Shown: positions 19,001 through 51,150 of the stretch, piece after piece | How positions within the stretch are numbered: the first letter of the stretch is position 1 | How the letters are laid out: the number at the start of each line of letters is the position of its first letter | Assembly (NCBI GenBank): GCA_029834535.1 | Contig: JAQMWT010000524.1 | Location: 310,001 to 374,000, forward strand | DNA: 64,000 nt | Reading direction: 5' to 3' | Source of the DNA: Chrysophaeum taylorii | Taxonomy: Eukaryota; Sar; Pelagophyceae; Pelagomonadales; Pelagomonadaceae | Notes under the pieces: model-generated | Database searches by the model: none | Seen by the model: only the letters and a program-made list of their open reading frames with translations | What the model was told of the DNA's origin: nothing | Made by a program: the position numbers and the translations under genes

Positions 19001-22000
19001 GTAGGCGTGCTGGTTGGCGAATCCGAGGGGCTTGCAGTCGGAGCAGGTGATGGCGCCAACGACGGTGACTCTGTTGGCAGCGCGCTCGGTCCTGCCGATG
19101 GGACACTAGTAGGTCCGGACGAGGGAGTGTTTGTTGGCAGCGCCGTGGGCGTACTGGTTGGCGAACCAGATGGACTCGCAGTCGGAGCGGGGGATGGAGA
19201 AGACGTCGGCATTGCGGTCGGCACCGCGCTTGGTCCTGAAGATGGGACGCGAGTTGGGCTTGACGAGGGAGTGCTCGTTGGCAGCGAAGTGGGCGTCCTG
19301 GTTGGCACATCCGAGGGACTTGCAGTCGGAGCTGGCGATGGCACCAAGGTCGGCGATGCCGACGGCGCCGCGCTTGGTTCCGCCGATGGCGAATGAGTTG
19401 GGCCGAAGGAGGGAATGCTCGTTGGCAGCGCCGTAGGCGTGCTGGTTGGCGAATCCGATGGGCTTGCAGTCGGAGCAGGCGATGGCGCCAATGTCGGTGA
19501 CTCTGTCGGCGTCGAGCTCGGTCCTGCCGATGGGACATTTGTAGGGCCGGACGAGGGAGTGCTTGTTGGCAGTGCCGTGGGCGTACTGGTTGGCGGACCC
19601 GAGGGTCTTGCAGTCGGAGCGGGGGATGAAGCCGTCGTCGGCATGGCTGTTGGCGCCGCGCTCGGTCCCGCCGATGGGACGCGAGTTGGGCTCGTCGAGG
19701 GAGTGCTCGTTGGTAGCGAAGTAGGCGTCCTGGTTGGCACATCCGAGGGACTTGCAGTCGGAGCTGGCGATGGCACTAAGGTCGGCGATGCCGACGGCGC
19801 CGCGCTTGGCTCCGCCGTCGGGGAGCTAGTTGGGCCTAAGGAGGGTGTGATCGTCGGCAGCGCTGTAGGCGTGCTGGTTGGCGAATCCGAGGGACTTGCA
19901 GTCGGAGCAGGCGATGGCGCCAGTGTCGGCGCCGCGCTCGATCCTGCCGATGGGACACTAGTAGGCCCGGACCAGGGAGTGCTTGTTGGCAGCGCCGTGG
20001 GGGTACTGGTTGGCGAACCCGAGGGAGTCGTAGTCGGAGCCGTGGATGGAGCGGACGTCGGCGAGGCGGTCGGCGCCGCGCTGGGTGCTGGCGATTGGCC
20101 ACTAGTCGGGAGGGACGAGGGAGTATTTGTCGGCAGCGCGGTGGGGGTGCTGGTTCGCGTCACCGAAGGATGGACAGTCGGAGCTGACGATGGCGCCGAG
20201 GTCGCCCACGGTTCCGTGCTTGATTTTGCCGATGGAGCACTAGTTGAAGGCGTGGGGAGGGCCGTGGTCGCTCCGACAGGGGAATCCGATGAACCGACAG
20301 TCGGGGATGGTGCCGATGTCCGCGAGGCCGTCGGCGCCGCTCTTGGTTCTGCTGGTGTGACATTCGTAGGGCCAGACGAGGTTGGCGTCGTCGACAGCGT
20401 CCTCAAGTTTGGACTGACAGTTGGTGATGATGCCGAGGTGGGCGAGGCCGTCGGTGCGTGTCTCGGTCCAGCTGTAGGGGGGCTCCTCGAGGGACTTGTC
20501 GATGGCAGGGCTGCGGGCAAACTAGAGGGCAAACTAGAGGAAGTTTCATTCAGCCCTGTCCGCTGTCCTCCCGAGCTCGGCGAAGTGGTTGGCGCCGCGC
20601 TCGGTCCCGCCAACAACTGAGCAGTAGTTGGGTAGGACGCGAGGATTGTAGTTGGACACGCCGTAGGAATGTTCGCCGGCGAACTCAACGGATTGGCAGT
20701 CGGCCAATTCCCCGCGGGACTGATCGAAGGCGAGCTTGCTGGCAAGTCCGACGAGAGAGTCGGCGTTGACGCCAAGGTCGGCAAGGTGGTCGGTGCCACT
20801 CTTGGTGCTGTAGAAGGAGCGCTTGTTGCGTCGGACGTGGGACGGCTCGCTGACACGTCGTCGATGGTCGGGCTCAAACTCGAGGGAGTGATCACGATGC
20901 CCGCTCCAGATGAGGTCGGGGAGGCAGGATGTGCAGCGCTCGGTGTCCGAGATTGAGCAATAGCTGGTGCTCCCGAGGAGGGGCTGCTCGTTTGCAGCGC
21001 CGCCGGCATGCTTCCCGGAGCCCCCGTGACATCCGGAGCAAGCGTGGAGGTCCGCGAGGCCGTCTGTGCTGCGGTCGGTGCTGGTGACGATGCACCACCA
21101 TTTAAGTCAGACAAGCAGGGGGTGCTCGTTGGCAATATCGTGGGCGTCGTGTTCGCTGGCGAACCCGACGGACGCGCAATCGCCAACCTTCGCGTTGGCG
21201 AAAAAATTCTTTTCTGCGGTTGATTGCTCTGTTTTGCCGACGACGGAGTACAACTTGGGTCCAGGGAGGGTCTGGTCGATGGCAGCGCTGTGGGCGTGCT
21301 CAACGATGACGACCCCGTGGGACTTATGACTGCAGCTGGCGATGACACGGAGGCAGTTGGCGCCGCCGTGCTTGGCCCCGCGGCGGCTCGAACGCGCGTT
21401 GGGTAGAGCGAGCGCCCGCTGTTGGTTGTTGGTGTCAGCAGCAGCAGCAGCAGCTCGGGGGGCTGGGAGTTCGAGTGACTGGGAGTCGGCGCGAGCGATG
21501 ACCCCGAGGTGGTCGGGGAAGCCGTTGGAACCCTGCTCGGTCCCTTCAAGGATGACGTATCACGCGTCGGGTGGTGGTGGTGGTGGAACGAGGGACGCGC
21601 GAGTGGCACTGAAGGCGAGTACTTCGACGCGGCGAGCGTCGGCCCAAAATCAAAAGTCGAATGATGAGTCGGGGAGACCGACGGTGTGCTTGGTTTAGGA
21701 GACGGAAAAGACGTTGGGTCGAACGGCGGACTCATCATACTTAATGGTGGTGATGGGGACCAGGAAGACGGAAAGTTCGACTCCTCCTCGCTCCGAGGAG
21801 GCCGCCTCGACGGGCGGAGCGAAGGCTCGTCCGCGGGCGCAATCGACAAAGGCGTCGGCATCATCGAGGTGGTAGGCTCGGAGCCTGGCGGGGTCGGCGA
21901 AATAGAAGGCACGCTCGTATTGATCGTCGGCGAGAGCGATGACGCACACGTATATTCTTGATCGTAGCCTCGTCCGTTGAGTTGGGTGTGTGCGGCATTG

Positions 22001-22749: not shown

Positions 22750-22759
22750 GTCGACAGCT

Positions 22760-25968: not shown

Positions 25969-27126
25969 CTAGGGGAGGGGCTCGTCGTGGTCGCCGAGGC
26001 GGGAGAGGTAGACGTAAGCGTCGGTGCCGTAGCCTTCCATCGACATCAAGGTGACGTCCCCCCCAAAGTAGCGCGCGTAGGCGCGGGAGATGGGGAGGCC
26101 GTAGCCGAGGCCGGCCAGGGGAGCTCCCCCAAAATCCGAGGACCGTGAATTCGTGTCGAGAAACCCCCTCTCCTGGACCTCGTGCGAGGCGGTAGTGAAG
26201 AGGTACGACCAGACCCGCGGCATGTGTGACCTCGCGATGCCGCCACCCTCGTCGCTGACCTTCAATGCGACGTCCTCGTTTTCCTCGCCGTCGGCGACGA
26301 CGACCTTGACGGGCGCGAGGGTCTTGTGATCGACCTCGCCAACAAGCTTCGCGTGCTGCTCGACCGTCGCCCGCATCGAGTTCTTCAAGAGCTCGAGCAT
26401 GATGTAGTAGAGGTGGTCGGGGACGTAGGAAAAGGCGAGGTCTAAACGTCCGTGAAGTTCGACTTCCGGAGCGACGCCAAACTGGCGCTCGCACAGCATC
26501 GTCGCCTGGTCGACGGCATCGACGGCGACCTGAGCGGGCACCACCTGGGTGTCGAGGAGCCCTATCCTCGTCGATTGCGGGGTACACTGGCGCAGGGCCA
26601 GATACTGTCCGATGATCACGCGAATGCCTATCCGAGAGGTGTAAAACGAATCGAGGAACTGATGAATCTGTAGATCGAGTTCGAAGGCGAACCTTTCCTT
26701 CATCGAACTCCGGAGCTCGTGGGCGCCCTTGGCCATGGTGATCAGCACGGCCGCGTGGCGTTCGTAAATGGCATCGATCAATCGCGCGAACCGCTCTTCG
26801 CTGAGAGGATCGACGGGCCGTTCGGATTCAAATATTTCGATCGCTGATTGCGCGTACCATTCGCGCACCAGTTTCACCGACGGCATCGCGTACAAGGAAG
26901 GGAGCCGGTCCAGTTCCGCGACGCGCCGCGCGAGCCGGATGGGGAGTTCGCGATGGAGGAACGCTGCCACCGTCAGGAGCATGGGTGTCGGCGAAACCTC
27001 GGGCAGCTGCCGCAAATGTTCGCGGCCCGCGGCGAGGAGTCCGCGCAGGGACACCCCCGTCTGCCGCTGCCTCGACAGCCGCGTCACGACGTCCGAGGAC
27101 GTGCCCAAAAACCTGCGGTGAATCAT
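25969..27126 (-). CDS. Mitochondrial alpha-keto acid dehydrogenase kinase (PDK/BCKDK family)
   Basis: 385 residues, a normal length for the family, and intronless. These kinases sit in the mitochondrial matrix and switch off pyruvate or branched-chain keto acid dehydrogenase by phosphorylating its E1 subunit. The N-terminus (MIHRRFLGTSSDVVTRLSRQ) is Arg/Ser-rich and lacks acidic residues before position 12, consistent with a mitochondrial presequence. The helical regulatory domain is followed by a GHKL ATPase fold. N-box ELLKNSMRAT is near residue 243, G1 box DEGGGI near 291 with the downstream SYLFTTA, and the G2 box GLGYGLPISRAYARYFGG near 339. All nucleotide-binding boxes are intact. The sequence alone does not separate PDK from BCKDK. 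Its ATG lies 10 bp after the stop of the upstream EGF-like gene. Confidence 0.93.
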   Translation of the reverse strand: MIHRRFLGTSSDVVTRLSRQRQTGVSLRGLLAAGREHLRQLPEVSPTPMLLTVAAFLHRELPIRLARRVAELDRLPSLYAMPSVKLVREWYAQSAIEIFESERPVDPLSEERFARLIDAIYERHAAVLITMAKGAHELRSSMKERFAFELDLQIHQFLDSFYTSRIGIRVIIGQYLALRQCTPQSTRIGLLDTQVVPAQVAVDAVDQATMLCERQFGVAPEVELHGRLDLAFSYVPDHLYYIMLELLKNSMRATVEQHAKLVGEVDHKTLAPVKVVVADGEENEDVALKVSDEGGGIARSHMPRVWSYLFTTASHEVQERGFLDTNSRSSDFGGAPLAGLGYGLPISRAYARYFGGDVTLMSMEGYGTDAYVYLSRLGDHDEPLP

Positions 27127-27136
27127 ATTTTTACTC

Positions 27137-29236
27137 CTAGTAGAACCGTCGGTGGTGGCCGCAGTCCGGGAGGGTTCCGGATCCCCCCCTCGCGTCGCTC
27201 ATCCCGTACCCCGAGAAGCAGCTGCAAAGCCCTGTCGTCCGGTCGCAGGTCCCCTGGTTGGAGCACTCGACGGCCTCGGTCGTCCCGGCGAGGGACGCGT
27301 AGGTGCGCCCGACGTTGTCCGCGAGCGTCGAGCCGTCGCTCCTGACCCACACCCTAGCAGCAGCGGTGGTGTCCGCAGCAGCAGCAGCAGCAACTTGGAC
27401 ATCGGGAACATCGCCGTGTTCGGTGACGAACTGGATGTGGACCACGTTCTGGTGCTCGCCCGTGGTCGTGCACAGCGCGTCGCCGTACGAATAGGTCACT
27501 TGTATCTGTCCGACGGTCGGGAGCGACTCGAGGGCCGTCTCGAGCGTCCGCGCCGTCGCGTCGAAAGGCACCGACGCGGCGGAAGCGTCGCGGAACGACA
27601 CCTCGAGGGTCCCCGAGGAGGAGGAGGAGGAGGAGGAATGGGTGGTGGTGGTGGCAACGCACTTGAGGAGCTGGAGTTCGTTGGTTTGGCCGCGGGTTGC
27701 TGGATTGTCGCCGACGGGACACGTCCGCAGCGAGCAATCGTGACCCGCGTAGCCGTCGTCGCACAGACAGCCGTATATTCTGTCGGCGTCCCAGTCGTCG
27801 TAGCCGACGGCGAGCTCGCGCATCGATAAGCATCGACCCGTGCCGGAACACTTGTTCGGACAGTCCATGAACTCGCACGCGGCGCCGGCGAAGGGAGGCG
27901 GGCACGCGCAATCGCCGTCCTCGCAGGTCCCGATCCCCGAGCACTCGAGCAACCCGTCGTGCGCGGCGTCGTCGGCGCTCGGGTACGCAAACCACGAGTA
28001 GCCCCGCGGGCAAATTCGGTTCCCGCAATCGCCGTCGCGCCAGCCCGCGTGGCACGCGCAGTAGAACGGCTTGGCCGCCTGCCAACCGGCCTCGGGAGCC
28101 GCGGGCGACGGGAATGGGGTCGCGTCGTCGTCCACAACGCCGTCCCCCCGGCACACGCCGTTGTTCGAGCACGCCTCCTCGCCGGGACAGAGGGTGATCG
28201 ACGTGAGCGGGTAGCCGCAGTCGCCCGCGACGCCCGGTCCGCCGTAGAGATTCGAGCTCCCGTAGAGCTCAAAGTTCGAGCTGAAACACTCGCACACCCC
28301 CTCAGAACTGCACGAGCCCCTTCTCCCGCATTCGGCGTACTCTTTGGTGCATTGCTGGGCGTACGTGTATCCGCCCCTCCCGCGCAAAAACGCCCCGTCG
28401 CCGTCCGCGCCTACGGTCTTGACTTGCACCGTGCCGGCAAACGTCGTCGACGACGACGCGTCGACCGTCAGGTCCGGGACTGTCCCGAAGAGAGTCGTAA
28501 ACTCGACCTCGATCACGGTTCTGTCCTCGAAGCTCGCATCCTCGGGGAAGCAGGCTCGTCCTTCGAACGACGCGGCCACGTCGACGCCCGCCTCCTCGAT
28601 GGCCGCCTCGACCTCCCTGGCGTACATCGTATGCGTGATCTCGCCGGTCTCGAAGCCTCGGAACCGCAGCTTGAAGCTGCCCTCCCCCGCGCACGAAACG
28701 AGCTGAATCTCGTTCGATTGGCCGCTCGTGAGCGGATCGTCGCCCTTGGGACACTTGCGCCGCGCGCAACCGGGACCCTCGTACTCGGCTCCGCACAAGC
28801 ATCCGTGGATCTTGTGGGCGTCCCACACATCATCGTACGAAAATTGCTCCGACTTGTCGTTGTACTCCCATCGCGCCAAGTCGTACATCGACAAGCACGC
28901 TCCGCGACCCGAACAGCTCGCGAACCCGTCGCCCTGGCACATCAGCCGCTCGCACGCGGCGCCCGCAAAATTCGTGTCGCACACGCACTTTCCGCTTCCG
29001 CGGTCGCACGATCCGCGATTCGAACATTCCGCCTCCGAGTGGCCCTCGAGGTCCGCCCACGCGGCGCCCATAGGGCACGTCCGCAGCGAACAGTCCCCGC
29101 CCGTCCACCCGTTCCAGCACTCGCACCGGACCCCAACGCAATCCCCGTGCCCCGAACAATACGGCACGTCCGCGTAGTTCGGACACGCCGCGAGGCTGCT
29201 CGCGCTCAGACATACCCAGAACCGCCGCCGCGTCAT
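27137..29236 (-). CDS. Secreted EGF/tenascin-like cysteine-rich protein
   Basis: 699 residues, intronless. A short hydrophobic start (FWVCLSASSLAAC) could act as a signal peptide. Repeated modules carry the EGF-type pattern C-x-G-x-G-x-C (CSGHGDC, CSNRGSC, CSGRGAC, CSNNGVC, CSGIGTC, CSGTGRC, CSNQGTC) followed by CxC and a Gly/Asp-Cys close. Two larger cassettes contain KCPKGDDPLTSGQSNEIQL and TCPVGDNPATRGQTNELQL, a hallmark of a family common in stramenopile genomes, each followed by a beta-rich non-EGF insert. There is no C-terminal membrane anchor. An extracellular matrix or cell-contact role is likely. It is transcribed towards the PDK-type gene, with only 10 bp between stop and ATG. Confidence 0.85.
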   Translation of the reverse strand: MTRRRFWVCLSASSLAACPNYADVPYCSGHGDCVGVRCECWNGWTGGDCSLRTCPMGAAWADLEGHSEAECSNRGSCDRGSGKCVCDTNFAGAACERLMCQGDGFASCSGRGACLSMYDLARWEYNDKSEQFSYDDVWDAHKIHGCLCGAEYEGPGCARRKCPKGDDPLTSGQSNEIQLVSCAGEGSFKLRFRGFETGEITHTMYAREVEAAIEEAGVDVAASFEGRACFPEDASFEDRTVIEVEFTTLFGTVPDLTVDASSSTTFAGTVQVKTVGADGDGAFLRGRGGYTYAQQCTKEYAECGRRGSCSSEGVCECFSSNFELYGSSNLYGGPGVAGDCGYPLTSITLCPGEEACSNNGVCRGDGVVDDDATPFPSPAAPEAGWQAAKPFYCACHAGWRDGDCGNRICPRGYSWFAYPSADDAAHDGLLECSGIGTCEDGDCACPPPFAGAACEFMDCPNKCSGTGRCLSMRELAVGYDDWDADRIYGCLCDDGYAGHDCSLRTCPVGDNPATRGQTNELQLLKCVATTTTHSSSSSSSSGTLEVSFRDASAASVPFDATARTLETALESLPTVGQIQVTYSYGDALCTTTGEHQNVVHIQFVTEHGDVPDVQVAAAAAADTTAAARVWVRSDGSTLADNVGRTYASLAGTTEAVECSNQGTCDRTTGLCSCFSGYGMSDARGGSGTLPDCGHHRRFY

Positions 29237-36974: not shown

Positions 36975-38230
36975 GCAACGGCAGGAAAGAAAAGGGGGGC
37001 GTCCACTTACCCTGACACGGCCGAGATCCTCGTAGACCACGGGGATGCCGGACAGGGCGTAGCTTCCTTTGTGCCTCGTGGAATCACCAACAGATCGCCA
37101 TCTCAAATCGAGAGCTAAAAAATCATTTATGGTGAGAATAAGGGCCAAATCGACAGCTGTCCTTGGAGAAGGATGCTGACGTGGTCTTGGGGAGAAAAAG
37201 GCCAAGGAAAAGTGTGGAATCAGGACAAGGAATGATAGGTAGGGTATGGCGAACAGTAGGAGTTGTGGAGAGATTTGACTCTCTCCAGGGGTATGGTAGA
37301 GACCACGTGCTGTCTTAGATGTCATTAGACCATTCCGCCCACCACGTGCTACTACTCACGTAGGATTAAGCTCCTCACCTCCCAGGTGACATAAGCCCGG
37401 AGAAGCTTTCACACTGGTAGCGAGGAACAGAGCCACTCCCAGATAAACAACGGACTCTGTACCTTGCGGCACGCAAGGGTGGATTACTCCAAAGGTCGCA
37501 TGGAGAACCGGACGAGCTTCTTGTCGGGTTTATTGCAAAAGAAAGCGGTAGGAGAGAGGGGAAGGGTAAGGATTTTGAACAGAAGCCGTGATATGACTCG
37601 GACAGAATACGCTCAAATGACAAGCGTAAGGAGTGGTCCAGTGGACCTGAAGTGGTGTGCTGGAGCACCAGCGAGTCATATACGATATGGGTGAACTCTC
37701 TGGGCCCCCTCAGCATGTGGGACACGCTATAGGTGTTGTGGCGGCAACTCCCGCCTCCTAAGGCTTACCCCTCTTCTAGGGCCCCCCTTATCAGGGGCAC
37801 CGTACTCCGTTCTGATGATGTCAGTTTTCTATGATGATGTCAGTTTTCTATATGACATCATCTTCCCTTTCCGTGACATGTGTCACCCTGATTTCTGTGT
37901 TTCGATAATACCTTGATCATAAAGCAACAGCCGATCCTCAAGTTGTGAGGACCAGGCACGGAAGTTGTTTGTGGTTCTGTGGCGGGAGAACGGCCACCCT
38001 CGTCCAGTGACACCACCAAGGGCACGGACGCGAGCGGCGAGCCAGGATTTGAAGGCACGCCAGGTAGCCCCTAAAATTCTCATTACGCCACAGGTGGTGG
38101 AGGATATGTGTGGCGGGAGAACGGCCATCCTCGTCCAGTGACTCCACCAAGGGCACGGACGCGAGCGGCGAGCCAGGATTTGAGGGCACGCCAGGTAGCC
38201 CCTAAAATTCACCTTACGCCACAGGTGGTG
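36975..38230 (+). repeat. LTR-like and leader region of copy A
   Basis: Similar in order and orientation to 54328-55010. Shared blocks include GGCAGGAAAGAAAAGGGGG, TACCCTGAC.CGGC, GATGCCGGACAGG, GATCGCCATCTC, TTATGGTGAGAATA, ATGCTGACGT, GTTGTGGCGG.AACTC, GGCTTACCC, TGATCATAAA and CCTCAAGT. Part of it also matches the copy B end. The 37280-37730 portion has no counterpart at 54.6 kb. Ends and a primer-binding site could not be fixed. Confidence 0.5.
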
Positions 38231-38239
38231 GAGGAATGC
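37978..38239 (+). repeat. 131-bp tandem duplication in the leader
   Basis: The segment starting TGTGGCGGGAGAACGGCCA at 37978 recurs at 38109. Both units end in an ACGCCACAGGTGGTGGAGGA block. They differ by only a few bases, so the duplication is recent. Confidence 0.9.
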
Positions 38240-39772
38240 GAGATTCGAGCGACTATATCGGTCGCAGCGAACTAGTGCATCTTGCATTCTCTACACGGTC
38301 CGGACAAGCCGTGCGCGCCCTGATCAAGCGCGCCGACAAGGAATTCCAGAAGGACCACTGCCGTGGGAAAGTTCCCCGGCCGGATACGTTAGTCGTCCGA
38401 AGTGACGACGCGCGATTCGGTGCTAGCCGACGCGCAACCCGGGTACCGCTGCCGCAGGCGAGCGGAGTGAGATCGCAACTCACGGATAAGGCGTTGATTG
38501 CCGGGCAGAGACGAATTCTGCCGCCCACCGGACTGATAGATTTGTCTGTGGAAGACGCACGCAACGACGATATTACACGTGTCGTGGACGATTAGAAGTT
38601 CCAGAGTCGAAGGAGCAGAGAACGACGACGACTCAACCATTTTGGACCCGCTCTGATCTCGGCCGACTAGAACGAGCCAGAGCCGATATGGAAGACGATG
38701 ATGCTGCCGTCGAGCAGCTACGATATGAAGAACCGCCAAGCCGTCAGGATGAGACGAGCGAGCGGAATGATGATGATGATAATGACGATGATGAAGAAGA
38801 AAAGGAGGAGACGCGTGGCGACGGAAGGATTGACACCCAGGAGTTCTTGATGGGCTTTACGGATCGATTCGCCAGCGCGTTAGCTAAACACGATCGCAAC
38901 AACGAGCGGCGATCAGCCTCTGGATTAAAAACCGAAACTTTTAAACTGGTTCTCGATGGACGCGATCAGGACCAGTTCGATTTAGATGCGGGCGCGGTGA
39001 TGAGTACGTAAGCCGAAGACCATTTCAGCTTGGAGAAACTACGATACCTGCTTCCCGCGACCCTGCGCGACACAGTCGCACCGATTTTCCGAGAACACTT
39101 AAAGAAGTACGAAGACCTGTGTAAAGACCTCGATCACCCAGCGTCTTTTTATTTACGTCGGGATATCGACGATGAGGAGTACGGTTCCGTGGTACGACGA
39201 TTACGACGATTGAACGAGAAGTATTGCCTCAAGATTTTGAAATATTTCCGAGAGAGTTGTCCACTGCCGGTGACGGCAGAGGAATCGCTACGAAAGTTAC
39301 AATGCACGACCCAAGCGACCGTTCCGAAGCGCTCTGGGGAACGCCACGTGCATACGCGTTGCATTAAATTTCAGCAAGAGGCCATGGCGTACAACAGTAC
39401 GCCGTGGCCAACCGAGATCTCAACGATGTGGAGATCATTTCTTACTTGATACGCGGATTGGAGTCCAGCGAATTGAAATCCCGCGTGCGAACGATGCGCA
39501 GCGGACACCCGACGACGTATAAGACGTTTACGTCTACGTTGTCACTGATTACACGGCTCGAGAACGACTTCGCGACAGCCATGGCGGAGAAGAACAGCCG
39601 AAACTCAACGAACCCATCGAGCGGGAAGCCGCAGAAGCCACCGTTTGGACGCGGAGGACGGGCGCTCGCCTCGGGAACGAAAGATAAAACGACGAAATAC
39701 GAAGCATTACGCCTCGAAGAGAATCCGAAAAGTGATTCGAGAGGACATGTAAGGATTGTGGGTTTTTCTTAA
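38236..39772 (+). pseudogene. Gag of copy A, broken
   Basis: Four reading frames make up this region: 38236-38595, 38688-39011, 39030-39449 and 39404-39772. The second and third are in the same phase and separated by one TAA (39009-39011). The others need frame changes. The 39030-39770 part is helical and gag-like: LRYLLPATLRDTVAPIFREH, RCIKFQQEAMAYNSTPW, then DVEIISYLIRGLES and LITRLENDFATAM, as in retrotransposon capsid domains. A very acidic stretch (near 38770-38815) precedes it. The retained protein-like composition across frames suggests that an intact gag existed recently. Confidence 0.65.
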
Positions 39773-39837
39773 CGACCCACGACAAGGATGAACACGGGAA
39801 CCGAGTCATTTGCAACCGCGAGGCCGACGACTATTAT

Positions 39838-41133
39838 GTGGCGATGTGCAAATACATCGAAGACGGCAGAAGGCCCATTTCGCGAGGACGATGGGAGAGC
39901 CGACAAAGGAAAGATAATCATTCGCGTGACGACGGCAGTTCTAATGCCACCCTCGGTTCGAGCGCTGCTCAAGATATTCAGAGCAGACTCAATGATATGG
40001 GCACGCAGCTGACCACGGTTATGGATTCCGTGAAGCACTTAAAAGATAGACTCGGCCAATCGTCTTCGACACGACCGGGCCGTCGAGATAGCCGGAGCCC
40101 ACGACGCCGCGACAAGAGCCGTAGCAGCTCGCGCCAGCGCCGACGGAAAGATAGCAGGAGCTCTAGCAGACATTCACGCCGCCGCCGGCGACGAAGATCT
40201 CGCGATCGAAATTCGGACGATGGTCGTTACCGGGAAGACTCGGGACATTCATCTGCCACGTTCGCGTTTACGACCCCTTGCGGTCAACAGTTACCATTAG
40301 GAGTGATGGTGTACCCGAACACGGACACCCGCACCGACGACGCAGCCGACGCCCTTGCCGCGGCCGCATTCGAAGATCTTGCTCGCCCGCCGATGGACGA
40401 GCCACCCAACGACGTGCTGACCAATCGTCGGTCTTTGGCACAGATTTATGAGCAGATGTCGAGCGATGAACTCGAAGATTCGAGCGATGAACTCGAAGCT
40501 CCACGATACTGGGAAGGCGATTCAGATTCGGAAGATGAAGAAGCTACACCTTGTGAACCAGTGTCCGCGATAACGTTATTTGACGAGTCCTCCACGGACG
40601 ACCCACCGTTTATTTTTGACGAGGAAGCCCTCGATGCCATCGGCTTGTCTTTGGACCCGCCAGAGACGACCGTTGGCGACCGAACTGGCTGTGAGCCAGA
40701 CATGGATTTCTGCAGTGATAGCTTGTGCGCTCATTCGCCTGACGAGACGATGACCACCGCGAGTGATGCAGACGACGATCTTACGATAGAGTTGACGTCG
40801 GGGACGACGACATCTTTTCCTGCGGACCCCCCCGAAACGGTTTCGGTTTCTACGGATCGAGCCACGGATACGCCGCCGGAAGAAAAGGATAGATTTGAGA
40901 AGAAGATTAGCAGCGTTCTCAAGTGGGACGAAGACGAGCCGACGTGGAACCTGCAGGATTGGTGGACGAGAACTCGGAACTTCTTGCTAAAGAAGCCACC
41001 AGAACAACCGCTCAGCTACGGACGCGAAGCTGCAGCCGACACGGAACCGATCGCCGATGATGGTGATGATCAACCGAGGACGAATGAATTTACAAATGCA
41101 TTCTGGAAAGACGAGATGAATGATTTATGGTAG
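39838..41133 (+). CDS. Gag-linker ORF of copy A (coiled coil, RS-rich and acidic)
   Basis: 431 codons open. It begins with gag-type sequence, then a short coiled coil (IQSRLNDMGTQLTTVMDSV). A basic Arg/Ser-rich tract (residues 80-125, SRSPRRRDKSRSSSRQRRR) probably binds nucleic acid in place of a zinc knuckle. A long acidic linker follows (SSDELEDSSDELEAPRYWE, later GDRTGCEPDMDFCSDS). No CCHC finger is present. A single TAG (41131-41133) separates it from the protease frame in the same phase. That could be stop-codon readthrough, as in some retroviruses, or decay. The start shown is only the first in-frame ATG; the natural product likely begins upstream in gag. Confidence 0.55.
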   Translation: MAMCKYIEDGRRPISRGRWESRQRKDNHSRDDGSSNATLGSSAAQDIQSRLNDMGTQLTTVMDSVKHLKDRLGQSSSTRPGRRDSRSPRRRDKSRSSSRQRRRKDSRSSSRHSRRRRRRRSRDRNSDDGRYREDSGHSSATFAFTTPCGQQLPLGVMVYPNTDTRTDDAADALAAAAFEDLARPPMDEPPNDVLTNRRSLAQIYEQMSSDELEDSSDELEAPRYWEGDSDSEDEEATPCEPVSAITLFDESSTDDPPFIFDEEALDAIGLSLDPPETTVGDRTGCEPDMDFCSDSLCAHSPDETMTTASDADDDLTIELTSGTTTSFPADPPETVSVSTDRATDTPPEEKDRFEKKISSVLKWDEDEPTWNLQDWWTRTRNFLLKKPPEQPLSYGREAAADTEPIADDGDDQPRTNEFTNAFWKDEMNDLW

Positions 41134-41148
41134 GGGTCCTTTGCTTAC

Positions 41149-42195
41149 GTGAACTACGAAGACCAGGATCCCCTACCAGCACTGATTCCCTCTGAGATTG
41201 TCTTGGAGGAAGAGCGGAAGCCGCCAGATAAAGAGGCTGCCGCGAGCGTTACGTCGATGACGCCAACAACAGATGATACGAGAGCTCAAGCCGCGGTATC
41301 GATGCCCAACCCCGGAGATGAGCGAGTCAGAGCCCGATGTGCTCACACTTCGTTGACGCCGCGAGACGGCAAGACGAACGAAGATGATTTGGTTACCCTC
41401 AGTTGTTTAGATACGGGTACTCTTACGTTTATAGCCTGTCACATCTACAGGAATCGTGACGGGCCGAAATTCTCGACGACCATCGGTGTCGATGGAATGC
41501 CAGATATTGCTTGTATTTGCCGAGAAATGGTCAGAAAGTTGGCCAAAGATCAGTTGATTTTCGATGAAGGCGAACTTCCGATTAAGCGCAAGCTGTACGG
41601 ATCAGGGTTGAATACGACGACGATCTTTCGTTGGATCGCGATTCGGGTCGCCCTCGCCGACAACATCGCTGCCCCCTTTGTCGCTATTGTAGCCGATACG
41701 AACTATCTGTTCCTGTTGGGAGGGCGCGATATACGAGTTTTAGGAGCCGTCGTGGACTATCCCCACGATCGGATCTGTTTTTATCGAACCCAAGTCGTCT
41801 ACGGGCGCAAGAAGATTAAGTTCAAGGATGAACGAATCGATGCACCAATCGTGACCTTTCGATCTATTTACGATCGAGATCCGATAACCGTGCCGATTTA
41901 CAATCATCAACACGATGCCTTTCGGAAGAGTCTCGACCTGGTCAAGACTCGAGTTTACGCTCGTTTGAGCACGATTAAAGATCTCCGAAGCCCGCCGCCG
42001 GAACGTACGGTAGCCTTGGCTACGCGGGGACATGCTACGACCAAATTCTCCCCAGCTCCGGGAGAAGCCGCGCAGGAAGTAGTTGCTTACGCTGCGCGCA
42101 CGCTTCAAATCGAGCCCGGGTCGAACTTACAATCTACCGGTTATTTTGTCGAAACCTATGGAAATGGGACAGGTTTTCGTCGCTACGTTTGCTGA
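41149..42195 (+). pseudogene. Retropepsin-like aspartic protease region of copy A
   Basis: The frame is in phase with the preceding gag-linker across the single TAG. An active-site motif LSCLDTGTLTFIA (DTG at residues 88-90, base 41410) is followed about 110 residues later by FLLGGRDIRVLGAVVDY. That matches the flap-to-C-terminal ILG.DFL..G..IDY pattern of retropepsins. Such proteases cut the Gag-Pol polyprotein. Homology with copy B covers this whole part. Reading must move by one base near 42165-42175, where the alignment with copy B continues in the next frame (GQVFVATFAENEQL). The frame shown starts with GTG and is not a natural translation start. Confidence 0.7.
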
Positions 42196-43620
42196 GAACG
42201 AGCAGTTGGGGGTTGTCGAAGGAATGTGTTCTTCTTGCGAAGAGCACGACCGGTCCGCAGCTCGGGTGGCGGTTCCTGCCACGGAAGAAGTGCCGACGGT
42301 CGTCACTCAAGGCGGTGTCCTTGCGATTGGCGGTATCGTTAGGTACGAAGGTGAGTTGAACGTCTCCACGATCAACGAACTTACGAAAGAATGTGAAGAA
42401 GGATACGACAAGGGGAACCATTCTTTCACCGTTTCTGTCGCTAGTCACATGACGCGATGCGACGAATCTCCCCCGCCGATGCTGCTGAGCACGGTGCAGA
42501 AGGACGTTACGACCGCTATTGCGGACAAGTCCACCCTCCAACGACCCGAAGGCAGCGACGATTTCGCTCGAAGGTCAGAAGAAGATGAAAAGAAATGCCG
42601 CGAGATCACCGAAGCGGAGATCCGCCGCCGATACAAAAAGGTTCAGTGGCTTCCAATCACTTATCGCAAGGTGGTGATGCTGTTCAGTGGAGCCGGAGGC
42701 AGTACTTTAGGTCTCCAACGAGCCAACGAAACGTGTGGGACGTCGTTTCGAGTCGTGCTAGCACTCGATGCGTCGGACACCGCCAACCAGATCCACCATA
42801 AGAATTTTCCGAACATTCCTGTGGTGCAGCACACACTGTGTGGTCGCTATGTTACAGCCTTACGGTTGATCGAATCTTATTTACCCTACGCGAATGGTCG
42901 TCGTCGATGTGTATCGCGTCGCCACCCTGCGTACACTCCGCTCTGTGCAACTTGACCTCCAGAGATGTTGGGAAAGGAGTCACCGCTACCCACTGGACGA
43001 TGAAATTATGCAAGATGGCTGGTTTCTTCATGTGGTTGATAGAGCAGGAGGCTTCGATTGTTTCTTACGTTGCAAGTTTGCACCCTTACGTGTACGTCGT
43101 CAATTTTTACGACATAACTCCCAGTTTGATGAGCTGTCGCGTGCGATTGTTGGTTTCCAGCCATCCGCTCCATTTGCGCGCAGTTCCAAAGACTTGCAAG
43201 AATATGCAGCAAGAGTTCGCCGCAGCACTTGGCTACGCCGACGAACGACATTTACTTCAGATGAACAATTTAGGATCATCACGAGCCGCGACAGACGCAG
43301 CTTATACCGTTACGCGTGTCCCTCTTCGTGTAGGACCGCACCGTTCCGATTGCAGATCTCTGAATCTGAAAATGACTTCGGAGTTGCTGACAATGCCCCT
43401 TGATTTTGATTGGGCCGGCTTCTCCAGGACGACCTCGTTGAAACACTTGGCGTCCGTCGTGCCACCAGACACGATGACCTTATTAGTACTCGATCTGCAC
43501 AACTCTGTGACCAAGGATTTTCACCTGAGCGGCGAAGCTTTGCCGTCAGCGTTGAGTCCTGCAGACCGACCGTTTGATTATTATTTGCAAATTGATGAAA
43601 CCACCCTTCGTCACGTATAA
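42083..43620 (+). pseudogene. Cytosine-C5 DNA methyltransferase domain inside the retroelement
   Basis: Two frames, 42083-42955 and 42838-43620, join with one frame change near 42885-42905. After about 190 residues of linker the catalytic domain starts: VVMLFSGAGGSTLGLQRANE (motif I, AdoMet binding, FSGAGG at 42683), VVLALDASDTANQIHHKNFP (motif II/III region) and CIASPPCVHSALC (motif IV, catalytic Cys codon 42928-42930). WLIEQEASIVSYV sits at the motif VI place with Glu kept but not the usual ENV. YVVNFYDITPSLMSCRVRLLV matches motif VIII (R-x-R), and near the end LTMPLDFDWAG and LASVVPPDTM fit motifs IX-X. The domain adds a methyl group to cytosine C5 in DNA. It lies between protease and reverse transcriptase, in phase with the latter across one TAA (43618-43620). 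The frameshift makes this copy inactive as sequenced. Confidence 0.8.
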
Positions 43621-45230
43621 GCTCCGCTGTTAAACACGCGCACACGTGTCGTAAGATGGGTGTCGACTGATGATCTCCAAGATCGCACCAAATGGAAACC
43701 TCCAGAGGTACCGTTGATTCCGCCTGCAACAGATGAGCCGGGGACGTCTCATGCTTCTTCTGCTGGGCCACCCCGACAACCAAATTTGGACGTTCCGCCA
43801 GATCCTGAGCGAGATCGGGAACCGAAGATTAAGTGCGAGTCGAAGGTTCGTATCAAAGGCGAGAGGATCAACAAAAGCCACCCGGAAGTGAGGCTAAAAT
43901 ATGAGAAAAAGTTTGATGTGCCATGGAAAGATGCGCCGCGCGATGCTGAGGGTGCACCGCTGCCGCAAACTCCCGAGCATGTCAAGGATAATGAAGCTAT
44001 GAAAGTTCAAATTCCTACGAAGGAAGAAGTTGACAAGGTTGTGCAGGAGCTAGGAATTCCTGACAATCCGCACTTAGATGACGAGGCGAAACTGATGCTC
44101 CGTCACTGTGTGCAGTATTCTTGGGCCTTTTTCGACCCGATTATGAGACCTGTGGACTCGCCTCCTGTGTCTCTACGATTCAAAGACGCGAATCCGCGAC
44201 CGATAAAGATGACGCCCTACCGATTGACGCCTGCGAAGCTCGATTGTCTCCGCAAGCAGATCAGCGAGTGGTGCCGGGATGGAGCCATTCGTCCGGCCAA
44301 CTCACCTTGGGGCTTTCCTGTGTTGATGCTTCCGAAGAAAGGAGCTGAGATTGGAACGTCAAACGCGTTCCGTGCTGCAGTTGACTTACGTCAGCTCAAC
44401 GATCAATTGGTCAATGACAGTTGGCCGAACATTCGACAAGATGATGCTTTAGCCTTTCTCGCGATGAGACGATGGCGGACATGCATTGATATTAGATGGG
44501 GATACCACAACCTTCGTTTGGATCCGGCAGCGCAGGGCGCTGTCACGATGGTTAGCCCACTTGGCGCTCATAGTTTCTTGCGATTACCTCTAGGTGTGAA
44601 GACGGCCGGAGCTCTTTTCTGCAAGCAAATGGCGAGCGACCTTTCGAAATGGATGTATCAAGACTTGGTTGTGTTTGTTGACGATATTATGATGGGATCC
44701 GACGATCTTCATCGACATTTACAAGTTTTGATCGAAGTGATGTGTCATTCGCACAGAGAGGGTACAGCGGTCGAACCGCGAAGTTCCACCTTCTCAAGAA
44801 TGATATAGAACTTCTGGGACACATTTCTACCCCAGAAGGCTTGAAGCCGAATCCGAAGACGCTGGAAGCACTGCAGAAGATGCCGATTCCAGGTACTTTG
44901 CCGAATACTTCCCCGAAGACCCAGATACGCTCTTTCATCGGCATGAGTAATTACTGCCGGCGATATGTGAAGGGCTACTCGAAGATCGTGGAACCGCTGA
45001 GACGATTATCCCTCGAAGGTGTGAAGTTCGAGTGGACGCCCGAGTGTCAAAAAGCTTGGGATACGATTATTGGAGCTTTGGTTGATTCCAGAGGAGTCTA
45101 CCACCCCGATTATGACCTGCCTTTTCAGATCCGATCCGATGCTTCCAAGGATGGACTTGGAGCATATCTCTTCCAGATTGTCGAAGTTAAGGACGATGCC
45201 GGAAGAGTGTCTCGAGAAGAACGAGTGAGT
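43621..45230 (+). pseudogene. Reverse transcriptase and RNase H start of copy A
   Basis: The frame continues directly from the methyltransferase frame after one TAA. An acidic and basic spacer (43.66-44.1 kb) leads into the RT domain: RPIKMTPYRLTPAKLDCLRK, GAIRPANSPWGFPVLMLPKK, AAVDLRQLNDQLVNDSWPNI, ALFCKQMASDL and VVFVDDIMMGS, where FVDD is the catalytic Y/F-x-DD box. Near 44745-44760 a frame change leads to 44742-45260 with LLGHISTPEGLKPNPKTLE, IRSFIGMSNYCRRYVKGYSK (RT connection) and IRSDASKDGLGAYLFQ, the start of a Ty3-type RNase H (first catalytic Asp in SDAS). The protein breaks off near 45230 where repeat sequence begins. No integrase follows. Confidence 0.85.
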
Positions 45231-45236
45231 GAATTA

Positions 45237-46460: not shown

Positions 46461-47798
46461 CTATTTTCTATCATCAAAAGATGATTGGACTGCGACCGAA
46501 GTTTGCGAGTACATCCTGTGTGGTGGTGGATATAGACGTGTGTCCCATGCAGAAGGGTCAGGAGACGGGAGTAAATGCCCGAAAGCGATGGACGGTGCGA
46601 AGGCATTGTCTTTGCCTGGGGGAGAGCTGACTTCGAAAGCGAGCTCGGAGTCGTATCCTGCGTGTTCGACTGGAGGGTCGTGTTCTATTCGGCTAAAATC
46701 GCATCCCGAGTCATGACTATTGATTGGTTCAGGATTTGTTCCATGTCCGGAATCTATTTCACCAGAATCAAACTTCCCTTGATGTACAAGCGCGAGTGAG
46801 CGCGGTGCATCCCTGGTGAATTGTGCAGTGACTGAAAGTTGGGGCATTCGACAAAAGGGAGAGGTCGATATGCGATAGCTGTACAGTATGCAACATGGAG
46901 GGGGCGTGTGGTTCAAGAGAGAAAATAGCTGTGGACAGGAGATGTCCAAAGTGTGAATCTGATGTGAGACAATTGACATAGTGTGAAGACTGTCCGATAA
47001 GAGGGAGTCATGCGAGACTGTGGCTTGCAGCGAGTGTGCGAGATTAAAGGAAGATAATGGTGTGGCAAGTGACTTCCCTTGATTCAAAACACAGGAGAGT
47101 GGGGCATGCGACGTGCGGCAGTGACGGTCGGTAATATGCGGATAGCAGAGCGCGTGTCCAACCTGAAGAGATTGGGGATTATCCTCGCGGATGCTGCGGA
47201 GAATATCGACTGGGTGCGAGTCGCAATAGCAGCCGGTGAGCTCGGAGTTCAGCTGGGGTTGCAAAGGGGAACGTGCAGTATGAACGGAGAGGAGCGAGCC
47301 GGGCGCATCACAGGAGCATAATGTGCGAGTGCAGACTGAACTGTGTCCTAGGTGGACTTCTGGCAGTGATGTCGATAGATGCGAATCGTAGTCAGAACTG
47401 GGTGAGGACGTCGCGTGAAGTGGCATTGTAACCGAATCATAGAGGTGCAGATCTTCAGCGGAATGTAGATCTTCAACGTGAAGCTGAGTGCTGGGAGGTA
47501 CGATTGAAAGAGCAAGGAAAAGACTCTGCGAATGTCTACCAGTAAGTGAAGTGCGTGGGACAGGCGGTGAGTGCGACACATGACATTGGCATGACAAAAC
47601 TTGAGTTGCACATGGCAGCATACCGGATGGAACCGAGTGAGCTGAAACTTGGGGGGTGTGACCTGTAAAAGGCGGACAGAAGAGCGTGGGAGGCTCGGAA
47701 TTGCATTGGTGACGAAACTTAGTGTCATCACGAATCGTCGGGAATCGCGTTTGAATAAATGCTGAGAGGAAAGACCAGTTCTCATCAGGTCTAGTCAT
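46461..47798 (-). CDS. Long ORF of unknown function, Ser/His/Pro-rich
   Basis: 445 open codons. The product is rich in Ser, His, Pro, Leu and Asp, with scattered Cys, and lacks long hydrophobic segments. Pieces such as DSHLSTSLPEVHLGHSSVC and EIDSGHGTNPEPINSHDSG look like disordered linker. It is in the same phase as the 361-codon frame upstream (49160-48075), from which it is separated by about 280 bp with stops, so both may derive from one longer frame. Low G content on this strand raises the chance of open frames, but 445 codons is longer than that alone explains. Confidence 0.35.
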   Translation of the reverse strand: MTRPDENWSFLSAFIQTRFPTIRDDTKFRHQCNSEPPTLFCPPFTGHTPQVSAHSVPSGMLPCATQVLSCQCHVSHSPPVPRTSLTGRHSQSLFLALSIVPPSTQLHVEDLHSAEDLHLYDSVTMPLHATSSPSSDYDSHLSTSLPEVHLGHSSVCTRTLCSCDAPGSLLSVHTARSPLQPQLNSELTGCYCDSHPVDILRSIREDNPQSLQVGHALCYPHITDRHCRTSHAPLSCVLNQGKSLATPLSSFNLAHSLQATVSHDSLLSDSLHTMSIVSHQIHTLDISCPQLFSLLNHTPPPCCILYSYRISTSPFCRMPQLSVTAQFTRDAPRSLALVHQGKFDSGEIDSGHGTNPEPINSHDSGCDFSRIEHDPPVEHAGYDSELAFEVSSPPGKDNAFAPSIAFGHLLPSPDPSAWDTRLYPPPHRMYSQTSVAVQSSFDDRK

Positions 47799-48074
47799 GT
47801 GACGGAGATCCTTATGAAGAGGAACTTCAGTGCGTGCCTTAAAGTGAGTTCCGATGTAGCCAGAATAGCCATAGAAAGCGTGGCTGACATGAGTCGTAAC
47901 AGGTGTTGTCGGCGGTGGAAAACGAATGCGCCCTCGTAATTCTAACTTGATAAAATCTTCGAATTGCCGGTGAGGCTGCGAGACCGGTGTTGTGGAACCA
48001 GCGCAGAACCGGGCGGCGGTCGCAGGGGGCGCGTAAGCGGTGACTGAAATGGCAGTGTTTTGTTGAACCTGAAA

Positions 48075-49160
48075 CTAAAGATGTTCGGGTATCGTACTGT
48101 GCAACAAGCGATCGCGCATCTCAGTTGATGGTGAGTGCGCCGGAAGGATGGCGCTATGTGGGTAGTCTAAACCGAGAGAGGTGACGAGTGTGTCGTCGCG
48201 AGTGCGCAAGAGCCTTTGCGATGTCTGGGCTGTAGTCGGAATATGACGTATGACGACATACAATGCGATGGGAGCTGAATCAGACGCGATAGGACTGGAT
48301 AACAGCGCGGGGAGCAGCATGTCGGGGGTAACGCTCAGAGAGGAGGGTGGAACACAGTCCACGTCGATCTTGGCCGTATATGGCGATACCATGAGCGTAA
48401 ACATCTGACTTGAAGGAAGTGCTTGTGTCCCAAACGAGAATGCGAGCATAGGCGCATAGGATGGTTGCATCTTGTCTCTGCTACAGTCGAGAGTTAAGGA
48501 AGAAACCAATGGAGAAACCATGAGCATATGGGTAGCGTCTGGTGGCCAAAGTTCCTGTGGGATTGGCTGAGTTGGATCCGGAATAGGGTTCCTTCTCGGA
48601 GATGACTCGAGCGTTGCGATGAGTTCGTGCTCGAGATCATAGTCATCCAATAGATGACATGAAGTGATCGCTAAGGAGCGATGCATCGACATAGTATCAG
48701 GGGAGACCGAGGTGGTGCAGTGATCTGCCGGGCCGAGGTGGCCGTGCTGGTAAGATTCCGGCGCGTGCGCGTAACTCTGGCGAGTGCTGACATTGGCTAG
48801 TGCCTGATCTGTAGTTGTGAGGGGAAGCGAGATCATCTGCGCTGACGTGGATTGCGGCAGCAGGGGCGGGTCATCTGCCTGGGAGGTTGGAAGGTGGCCT
48901 TCGTCTTCCAGAGGCGAAGAGAGCAAACGTAGCTGTAGCTTCATTTCGTCGTGATTGGACAGGCGTAATACGCTAGTGCGCGTAATCGCGGTGCGCTTAC
49001 CTATATCTTGACGATGTGCCTGTGCGTACTGTAGTGCTGCTTCTGTGAGCGGGACATGTCTGAAGGGCTGATCAATCGGGTGGGGTGCATCAGCTATGTG
49101 TGAGACAGGAGCCTGTAGTAGTGCAAGGTCGAGTGACAGAACGTGTGCGTGGTCAATCAA
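48075..49160 (-). CDS. Long ORF of unknown function
   Basis: 361 open codons from the ATG at 49160, with a composition like the 46461-47798 frame (Ser, Leu, Pro, His, Asp). Leu-rich patches (LLPALLSSPIASDSAPIALY) and charged stretches alternate. I see no catalytic motif. It ends at 48075 with IPEHL. It is probably part of the same degraded polyprotein-like unit. Confidence 0.35.
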   Translation of the reverse strand: MIDHAHVLSLDLALLQAPVSHIADAPHPIDQPFRHVPLTEAALQYAQAHRQDIGKRTAITRTSVLRLSNHDEMKLQLRLLSSPLEDEGHLPTSQADDPPLLPQSTSAQMISLPLTTTDQALANVSTRQSYAHAPESYQHGHLGPADHCTTSVSPDTMSMHRSLAITSCHLLDDYDLEHELIATLESSPRRNPIPDPTQPIPQELWPPDATHMLMVSPLVSSLTLDCSRDKMQPSYAPMLAFSFGTQALPSSQMFTLMVSPYTAKIDVDCVPPSSLSVTPDMLLPALLSSPIASDSAPIALYVVIRHIPTTAQTSQRLLRTRDDTLVTSLGLDYPHSAILPAHSPSTEMRDRLLHSTIPEHL

Positions 49161-49428
49161 GCGATTGAACGTTGGACCTGGACATCGTCTTCTTAGTCTG
49201 GAGCAGTGCAGTGCAGTGGGTGTGCCTTGTCTCGTCTGCTACATCAATTGACTGACTGGTGTATCTAGTCGTTGTGGTCTTATCTGTCATCTTTTCGTCC
49301 ATGAGAGACTGCGAGTTAGTAGTCATTGCTGTGAGCGAGACGAGAAGTAGCTGTTGAGCAATAGCTATGTGGAGCTGAATGCTTACTTGGCTGGCGGTTT
49401 CGGTGGATGTGATGTTCCAGGGACATGG

Positions 49429-51022
49429 CTACGTAGCGGCTGACGTCTTGGCATTGGAGATTGCCATGAAGTGACTCGTAAGTTCAAAGTCGGACGTCGG
49501 GGAATGTGTCGAAAAACCCGTGAGGTTGCCAATTGAAATACGCCCTCGTAAGGCGCGCGCGGCTAGGTGTGGGCGCGAGCGACTTATGCTGGTGATCGGA
49601 AGGTCGAGAGACACGTGACGGCGCGGAGCGTCTGTGGAAAAGACAAGTGTCTGGGTGTTATAGGCGGTGACGCGGGGAGCATTGAGAAGCGGGTCATGCT
49701 CAAGAGCAAGATCGCGTAGTGCGATTTGTCCGAAATCAGTGCCAAAAGAGGTGTGGCGCGCGGCTGATCTGTCTGTAAGGTAGTGCAGATGGGTGCGCGA
49801 GCTGAGATGCCGTTGGGGAGAATATCCGGCCTGGATGTGGGTCCGGTGCGGGAGATCGACAGGAGAGATCTCGAAAGGAAAGTGCGAGTCCGCGGGGGTT
49901 ATGGTGCGTGAATGCAGTAGAGCCAAGGGCGATGGAAGGGTCTGGCATACTGGCGGCATCCTCAATGACGGAGGTGCGGGGATCAGAGCGGCGAGTGCGA
50001 AAGTGACCAGGGTTGCCCATAGGCGTGTAGAGCATGCGAAGATACGAGAGTATGACATGCGTCCTCGAATGGGGAGTAACGTGCCGAGCGATAGGGCGCT
50101 GTTGAGGGAGACGTCGCACGTGGCGATTGTGCATGTCTGCGGTGGAGCCGACAGTTGGCGTTAAACATTCGTCGTGCGTTCCTGTTATGCGAATATGCGG
50201 GCATGAGGGGTTCGAGAATAGCGAGTCAAAACAGTGTGCGCGGAGAATGTCTCCTGAGAGCGCAACATCGATTTTCCGGAGGCAGCGTAGGCGTGTGGCG
50301 TCCAGAAGAGAGCTACGTAAGCTGACATATAGGACCGAAGTGGTCGCGATAGGAAAGTTCGTAGTTTGCGGTTGACCATAGCGTTCATAATTCTCGAAAT
50401 CTGTGTCTGCGACTGCGGCCATGGTTGAAGCTTGCCAAAAACATGGTCGCGGTGAGACACAAGGGTCGGCATCCAAAAGGTGTGCGTCCTCTGACTGAGA
50501 GTGGGGGGGCGGTTGAGCCTGTGCTGCGAAATCCATTGAGTCGTAAATCGGTGATCGCAAGTGGGTCCATGCAACCTGCTGGGCAGAGTCATCATTAGCA
50601 TCCGGCCGGGAAGGTGGGTGGTTGGTGTAGCAGTGAGCGTCGGTGAGCGTCAGTGCGTGCCTGTTTGCGGAGAGAGAAGGCAGTGAGGTGGAACCAGCTT
50701 TGAAGTGTTCGGGAGTGACTGATCGATAGATATCGAACAAGGCGGGAGTACTTGGTGAATCTGAGGTGATACCTGCAGGTGCGGTGAGTTCCTGCGGGTA
50801 TGGTGACCGTGGGAACGTTGGCGGCGTGTCGTGTTCCCTTGGATACGACATAGCTGGGGCATTGCTGATGGCGTATGGATCGGGTTGTTGATCGAGAATG
50901 GTAGGGGAGATCATCTTCGAGACTAGTGAAGTTGGACTTGCTTTTTCACTGTACGCATAAGACCAGGGGTCGGAATCAGAGAAGATATCGTCAGTAGCCT
51001 GCAGCGCTGTTGCTTGGGGCAT
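49429..51022 (-). CDS. Two overlapping ORFs of unknown function in the inserted block
   Basis: Frame 51022-49736 has 428 codons and frame 50058-49429 has 209 codons in another phase. They overlap by about 320 bp, suggesting one protein broken by a frameshift near 49.8-50.0 kb. The first begins with ALQATDDIFSDSDPWSYAY and is Pro/Ser/His/Asp-rich. The second continues with similar composition. No recognised domain. Confidence 0.35.
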
Positions 51023-51150
51023 CGGAGGTGTTGCGGCTATTGGTCCATGAGTGGGGCTGCCATAGTCGATGTAGGCGTAATGCTCGGGAACATCTCGAGG
51101 TGTCTTATGCGTTGACTTGTCGGTCGTGGGAACGAGGTGGCTTGGCGTTC

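Follow-up and report, generated by a model that had tools for sequence, protein, structure and literature searches.

A divergent cytosine-C5 methyltransferase domain under purifying selection in a Ty3/gypsy retrotransposon family of the pelagophyte Chrysophaeum taylorii

The element in the window and its neighbours

The window, by which we mean the whole 64,000-nucleotide stretch of DNA analysed (contig C524, 310001-374000), contains a decayed, 3'-truncated Ty3/gypsy LTR retrotransposon at positions 37737-45234. A C5-cytosine DNA methyltransferase (DNMT) domain lies between its protease and its reverse transcriptase (RT). The parts of this copy were mapped as follows.

37737..38092, + strand: 5' LTR (blastn with the LTR of the open copy C5b, 88% identical)
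38110-38223, + strand: partial LTR duplicate behind the 5' LTR (tandem repeat 37978-38235)
38224..41133, + strand: 5' internal part with leader and gag-like coding region, frames broken (gag by position alone; no convincing Pfam match among the ORFs tested)
41134..42195, + strand: retroviral-type aspartic protease region (DTG at 41410-41418, LLGGRDIR downstream; motif recognised by eye, no Pfam match)
42587..43617, + strand: DNMT (C5-cytosine methyltransferase) domain in two reading frames (tblastn with the open-copy domain L009:5790-6827; PF00145)
42683..42700, + strand: DNMT motif I, FSGAGG (within the PF00145 match)
42916..42930, + strand: DNMT motif IV, ASPPC, with the catalytic Cys (open-copy equivalent aligned to the SPPC motif in host DNMT2)
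43039..43056, + strand: DNMT motif VI position, IEQEAS in place of ENV (placed by eye)
43456..43476, + strand: DNMT motif X position, VVPPDTM (placed by eye)
43897..44915, + strand: RT with FVDD, frame breaks near its end (PF00078, RVT_1, E 7.7e-9; tblastn)
45033..45234, + strand: start of RNase H (PF17919, RT_RNaseH_2, E 1.9e-11; the match to C5b ends at base 45234)

Stop codons and frame changes interrupt the mapped element, and because the match to the open copy stops inside RNase H, the window copy has neither integrase nor 3' LTR. An earlier sequence-only reading of this DNA had named the motifs FSGAGG, ASPPC, IEQEAS, R-x-R and VVPPDTM, all of which are present in the window sequence. It had also read them as one DNMT domain. 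With the open-copy domain as tblastn query, residues 1-121 and 103-344 were matched in the window. PF00145 supported the assignment for the motif I half (E 4.4e-4, 20.2 bits, just below the cut-off of 22), and the second half on its own reached no Pfam family. That reading had noted neither the broken and truncated state of the window copy nor the second, Ty1/copia-type DNMT family of the same genome described below.

Positions 38799-40146, within the gag part, gave no blastn match to copy C5b (E 1e-8), with flanks on both sides 94-96% identical to that copy, and positions 38940-39594 were 65% like the subfamily B copy C235. The unmatched stretch between closely matching flanks suggests that gag was exchanged between subfamilies.

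Other features of the window include three long ORFs on the minus strand just behind the truncated element (46461-51148), none with a Pfam match. One of these (49739-51148, -) matched the genome at least 92 times, with identities of 47-100%, and represents another large repeat family. Host genes comprise an FG-GAP repeat ORF (6829-9498, +), a 3235-aa ORF with Laminin_G_3 repeats (13051-22758, -) and a BCDHK-type mitochondrial kinase (25969-27198, -).

A Ty3/gypsy family with a conserved DNMT across the genome

We searched the C. taylorii genome (70.8 Mb on 697 contigs) for further copies. With the 346-aa open-copy domain as query, we obtained at least 117 matches, some of them partial, of which 25 contained a stop and 92 did not; a 272-aa query gave at least 142. 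Insertion counts may be inflated, since some contigs look duplicated (e.g. C10 and C297). Two copies on contig C5 (L009/L010 and L011/L012) each retain one uninterrupted reading frame, 3063 and 3067 aa long. Pfam searches with pieces of the 3063-aa copy identified, in order, PF00145 (E 1.4e-4), RVT_1 (1.4e-12), RT_RNaseH (6.8e-26), Integrase_H2C2 (2.7e-18) and rve (3.5e-12); in the 900-aa piece concerned, PF00145 scored 21.8 bits, just below the cut-off. The DNMT aside, the RT-RNase H-integrase order is that of Ty3/gypsy elements, the protease being recognised by its DTG motif alone. The Pfam scan covered the 3063-aa copy, and DNMT and RT matches are also present in the 3067-aa copy.

The family has the ends of an ordinary LTR retrotransposon. 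LTR pairs of 336-341 bp were 98.2% (C5a), 100% (C5b) and 99.7% (C477) identical, and a 312-bp pair at C524b was 95.2% identical. The LTRs are direct repeats with TG...CA ends, and C477 and C524b are flanked by 5-bp target duplications. The near-identical LTR pairs, together with these ends and duplications, indicate that the family was active recently. No target duplication was seen for C5a or C5b taken singly; the two copies lie ~24 kb apart, AGGAG stands in front of the 5' LTR in one copy and behind the 3' LTR in the other, and the two look as if they were parts of one compound insertion. After the 5' LTR lies a tRNA-like stretch, a candidate primer-binding site; a search of the genome revealed no separate tRNA gene ending in exactly these 21 bases.

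The protease-DNMT-RT order proposed from the window was borne out in many copies genome-wide. In 73 of the 119 RT matches listed, a DNMT match ends -5 to 508 bases upstream of RT on the same strand. Four of the other 46, those lacking a listed DNMT match, were fetched (C24, C14, C686 and C263) and all four carry the DNMT, in C24 and C14 with broken frames, so no copy without the domain was encountered among these four.

For METHYLTRANSFERASE, the kind of domain was given by PF00145, which matched all 13 aligned stop-free copies (best E 2.3e-6), extending the profile evidence from the window to single-frame copies; the first member of the tested set scored 25.1 bits, above the cut-off. The match covers motifs I-III only, and TIGR00675 gave E 0.0015. 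The motif IV Cys and, placed by eye, the R-x-R of motif VIII were present in all 17 stop-free aligned copies. The Pro before this Cys was kept in 16, one copy having ASPLC instead of ASPPC. The unusual motif VI pointed out in the window copy recurred, with IEQEAS in 16/17 copies and IKQEAS in one, the Glu thus being kept in 16/17 (the pairing with ENV was made by eye). A regular expression for the motif order matched 0/20000 shuffled sequences, although this counts for little, as the pattern was written after the sequence had been seen. An identity as adenine methyltransferase was rejected, no such Pfam match occurring in the window ORFs or the open-copy pieces.

Conservation was also apparent at the codon level. 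Ka/Ks was calculated by the Nei-Gojobori method for 12 subfamily A and 5 subfamily B copies (17 in all). The window copy (L001) was left out, as were L002 and L003 (same places as L025 and L019), copies with stops, breaks or gaps (L007, L008, L064 and L065) and, for RT, also L021. Within subfamilies, DNMT Ka/Ks was 0.193 for A (66 pairs, 12 copies) and 0.198 for B (10 pairs, 5 copies), about equal to that of RT (0.219; 45 pairs, 10 A copies). Between A and B the DNMT value was 0.070 (60 pairs), with Ks saturated at ~1.8 and an uncorrected pN/pS of 0.171; the corresponding RT values were 0.032 (10 pairs, one B copy) and 0.071, a looser constraint on the DNMT than on RT at this distance. The Ty3/gypsy DNMT is under purifying selection. 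The low Ka/Ks and the conserved Cys and R-x-R indicate that it has long retained a function of some kind.

The affinity of the domain was harder to establish. Among solved structures (E up to 10), the only methyltransferases matched were DNMT2s (9hgm, E 0.039; 1g55, 0.044; 4h0n, 1.3), with E-values that are not significant; no Dnmt3 was seen among these matches. With the family profile as query, DNMT2s gave E 0.17 and 0.18, and the adaptor GGA1 scored about equally. Local alignment to the DNMT2 of the host ran from motif I to SPPC (z 5.8; 0/500 shuffles as high), stopping at motif IV, compared with z 1.0 for the DNMT5 of the host. We treat the resemblance to DNMT2 as a hint rather than a classification. 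Since any alignment beyond motifs I-IV would be arbitrary, the domain has diverged too far to be placed in a tree with the cellular families. No relatives were found among 5.8 billion proteins (best 7995 word-sharing candidates scored), and of 13 and 85 pattern matches in viral contigs none was confirmed. AlphaFold models of the DNMT domains of this family and of the second family reached pLDDT values of 34.3 and 32.8, which is too low to look for similar folds.

The sequence-only reading had suggested an independent capture. This is favoured by a host outside both the dinoflagellates and the charophytes, by the ordinary LTRs and by the lack of a Dnmt3 match among structures, whereas the divergence of the domain rules out the tree that would place it. 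On this sequence evidence, the DNMT was likely captured separately from those of known elements.

A second DNMT family and the methylation genes of the host

When the genome was scanned with PF00145, at least 57 matches were obtained, all above the cut-off and none belonging to the Ty3/gypsy family; other very divergent DNMTs could therefore be missed too. Of the 57 listed, two were host genes and 55 were others. Of these 55, 28 were read, and all 28 aligned with the DNMT of a second retrotransposon family; 26 of the 27 others lie where a search with this second DNMT also gave a match (the exception lies on C216). The representative copy was as follows.

G000:C96:59500-70400 (L057, L059): second DNMT retrotransposon, Ty1/copia type, 1952-aa frame

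Its DNMT (PF00145 E 6.2e-9) has the motifs LPCQ and ENV. The order of parts is a DGGAS protease-like motif (by eye), the DNMT, a weak integrase match (E 0.0021, below the cut-off) and RVT_2, the Ty1/copia RT (E 9.7e-40). Members of two retrotransposon superfamilies, Ty3/gypsy and Ty1/copia, thus carry a DNMT at the same place, right behind the protease. The second DNMT is likewise under purifying selection (Ka/Ks 0.136; 28 pairs, 8 copies, Ks up to 0.95) and had at least 137 matches in the genome, some of them pieces of one copy. No homologues were found among 5.8 billion proteins (best 2978 candidates scored).

The two DNMTs showed no similarity to each other by alignment (z 1.5; 39/500 shuffles as high), and profile-profile comparison, with both profiles shallow, revealed no relation. 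Their acquisition could reflect either two captures or one ancient exchange followed by fast divergence. That two dissimilar DNMTs occupy the same post-protease slot suggests a repeated advantage.

The host genes were a DNMT2 on contig C634 (L027; E 3.9e-39 to 1g55), adjoined by a light-harvesting gene 99% identical to C. taylorii CTAYLR_008532, and a DNMT5-like protein in a 2086-aa frame on C621 (L028; E 3e-143 to 7r76, entry name Rad8, which we take to be the Cryptococcus DNMT5). DNMT2 is a tRNA methyltransferase, and DNMT5 is a maintenance enzyme in other organisms. Five MBD-domain matches were also present, two perhaps from duplicate contigs. Neither DNMT1 nor DNMT3 occurred among the PF00145 matches listed, a scan that may miss intron-split genes. 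According to a previous survey, pelagophytes have DNMT5a, and DNMT3 is missing from most stramenopiles except diatoms (PMC9998398).

CpG content was used as an indirect record of methylation. CpG observed/expected was 1.14-1.22 in 12 Ty3/gypsy copies, 1.22-1.34 in the window's first 36 kb and 1.01-1.07 in its last 19 kb; the corresponding TpG values were 1.17-1.24, 0.80-1.07 and 1.04-1.21. The copies showed no excess of mutation at CpG, with 0.0355 C/T differences per site between copies at CpG, compared with 0.0429 (ratio 0.83; 55 pairs, 11 copies). By context, CCT, ACA and ACT were the most changed, coding constraint not being controlled for. With CpG undepleted and C/T differences no more frequent at these sites, nothing points to heavy CpG methylation accompanied by decay.

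Possible function and comparison with known elements

The explanation we favour, and to which we give about an even chance, is that a recently active Ty3/gypsy family carries within Gag-Pol a selected DNMT that methylates the element's own cDNA. Since the DNMT lies inside a single Gag-Pol frame, it should be packed into the virus-like particle along with RT, RNase H and integrase, where the element's protease would free it. So packed, its natural substrate would be the new cDNA. The freed enzyme would methylate this double-stranded cDNA, the copy would insert already marked, and the host DNMT5 would then maintain the mark. The element might gain by resembling host or silent DNA at insertion, or by limiting its own damage. 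De Mendoza and colleagues proposed cDNA methylation for SymbioDIRS (PMC5890265), and the mode of action would be that of SymbioDIRS-Dnmt3 and KnitGypsy-Dnmt3, with a very divergent, probably separately acquired DNMT. In yeast, SymbioDIRS DNMTs brought about de novo CG methylation, and the DNMTs of KnitGypsy-Dnmt3 and SymbioLINE gave no activity, which the authors called inconclusive (PMC5890265). In favour of cDNA methylation we counted the long open frames, the near-identical LTRs, the PF00145 matches, the purifying selection, the conserved Cys and R-x-R, the DNMT5-like gene and MBD matches of the host and the SymbioDIRS precedent. We counted against it the undepleted CpG, the restriction of the PF00145 match to motifs I-III, the departure of motif VI from ENV and the poor AlphaFold models.

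Some of these observations would fit other functions. The domain could be a DNMT2-like RNA methyltransferase acting on the tRNA primer or on element RNA rather than on DNA. The structures matched and the alignment scores with the two host enzymes lean this way, and an RNA substrate would leave no CpG decay. We nevertheless consider this unlikely, as the structural E-values were not significant and with the profile were approached by GGA1, the alignment with DNMT2 ends at motif IV, and the primer tRNA gene was not found in the genome. It is similarly improbable, in our judgement, that catalysis was lost and the domain persists because it binds nucleic acid or S-adenosylmethionine or helps the polyprotein to fold. 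EQE in place of ENV in 16/17 copies and a PF00145 match ending by motif III could be read in this sense; against it, Cys and R-x-R persist in 17/17 copies across two subfamilies whose synonymous divergence is saturated.

The DNMT could instead be aimed at the host or at rivals, namely at host chromatin near insertions or at the cDNA of other elements. Two families with mutually dissimilar DNMTs suggest a shared selective pressure in this host, but a site within Gag-Pol points first to particles and cDNA, and we hold this to be very unlikely. Chance motifs or an assembly artefact, the single-locus chimera that the sequence-only reading had itself raised and for which the weak first PF00145 score of the broken window copy might speak, are in effect refuted by more than 100 matches on many contigs, the recurrent DNMT-RT spacing, the Pfam matches in 13/13 copies and the purifying selection.

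A wider role can also be envisaged. Since the host C5 enzymes among the matches listed were DNMT2 and DNMT5, and two element families carry DNMTs, the DNMT-bearing retrotransposons might be the sole source of de novo cytosine methylation in this genome, with the host copying the mark. We regard this as a long shot. The system also makes it testable how lineages with mainly a maintenance DNMT5 gain new methylation.

DNMT-bearing retrotransposons are on record from Symbiodinium and Klebsormidium (PMC5890265), the one paper describing C5-DNMT retrotransposons that our literature search brought up. KnitGypsy-Dnmt3 of Klebsormidium nitens resembles the C. taylorii Ty3/gypsy family in having a C5 DNMT in a gypsy-type Pol, several copies and purifying selection. 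It differs in that its DNMT is Dnmt3-related, whereas the C. taylorii domain matched no Dnmt3 among structures, and in its DIRS-like repeats, compared with plain direct LTRs, 5-bp duplications and a stramenopile host here (PMC5890265). SymbioDIRS-Dnmt3 of Symbiodinium shares the DNMT and RT in one polyprotein and the many copies, but has a tyrosine recombinase in place of an rve integrase and LTRs (PMC5890265). SymbioLINE-Dnmt, also of Symbiodinium, shares a lineage-specific orphan DNMT on a retrotransposon; it is a LINE with the DNMT in an upstream ORF, whereas in C. taylorii an LTR element carries it behind the protease (PMC5890265). Among stramenopiles, Sola1-1_Ec32 of the brown alga Ectocarpus is likewise a mobile element with a DNA methyltransferase domain, but it is a DNA transposon with a separate ParB-methyltransferase gene, predicted to produce N4-methylcytosine or N6-methyladenine and not 5-methylcytosine (PMC12477816). 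DNMT2/TRDMT1 (1g55, 9hgm), the nearest, non-significant structure match, is a cellular tRNA enzyme and belongs to no mobile element.

In the open-access journal papers searched, we saw no C5-DNMT retrotransposon described from a stramenopile, and the strings retrotransposon, transpos and repeat are absent from the main text of the C. taylorii genome paper (PMC10366177). A copia case may already have been published, as the text of PMC12344493 names LTR Copia elements with DNMT3; that paper cites PMC5890265, yet places DNMT3 in LTR Copia where the original has Gypsy. Stramenopiles thereby join the few lineages with C5-DNMT retrotransposons, and do so with two mutually dissimilar enzymes in the same post-protease slot. 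In comparison to the known elements, what is new is the stramenopile host, the very divergent DNMT and the copia-type case.
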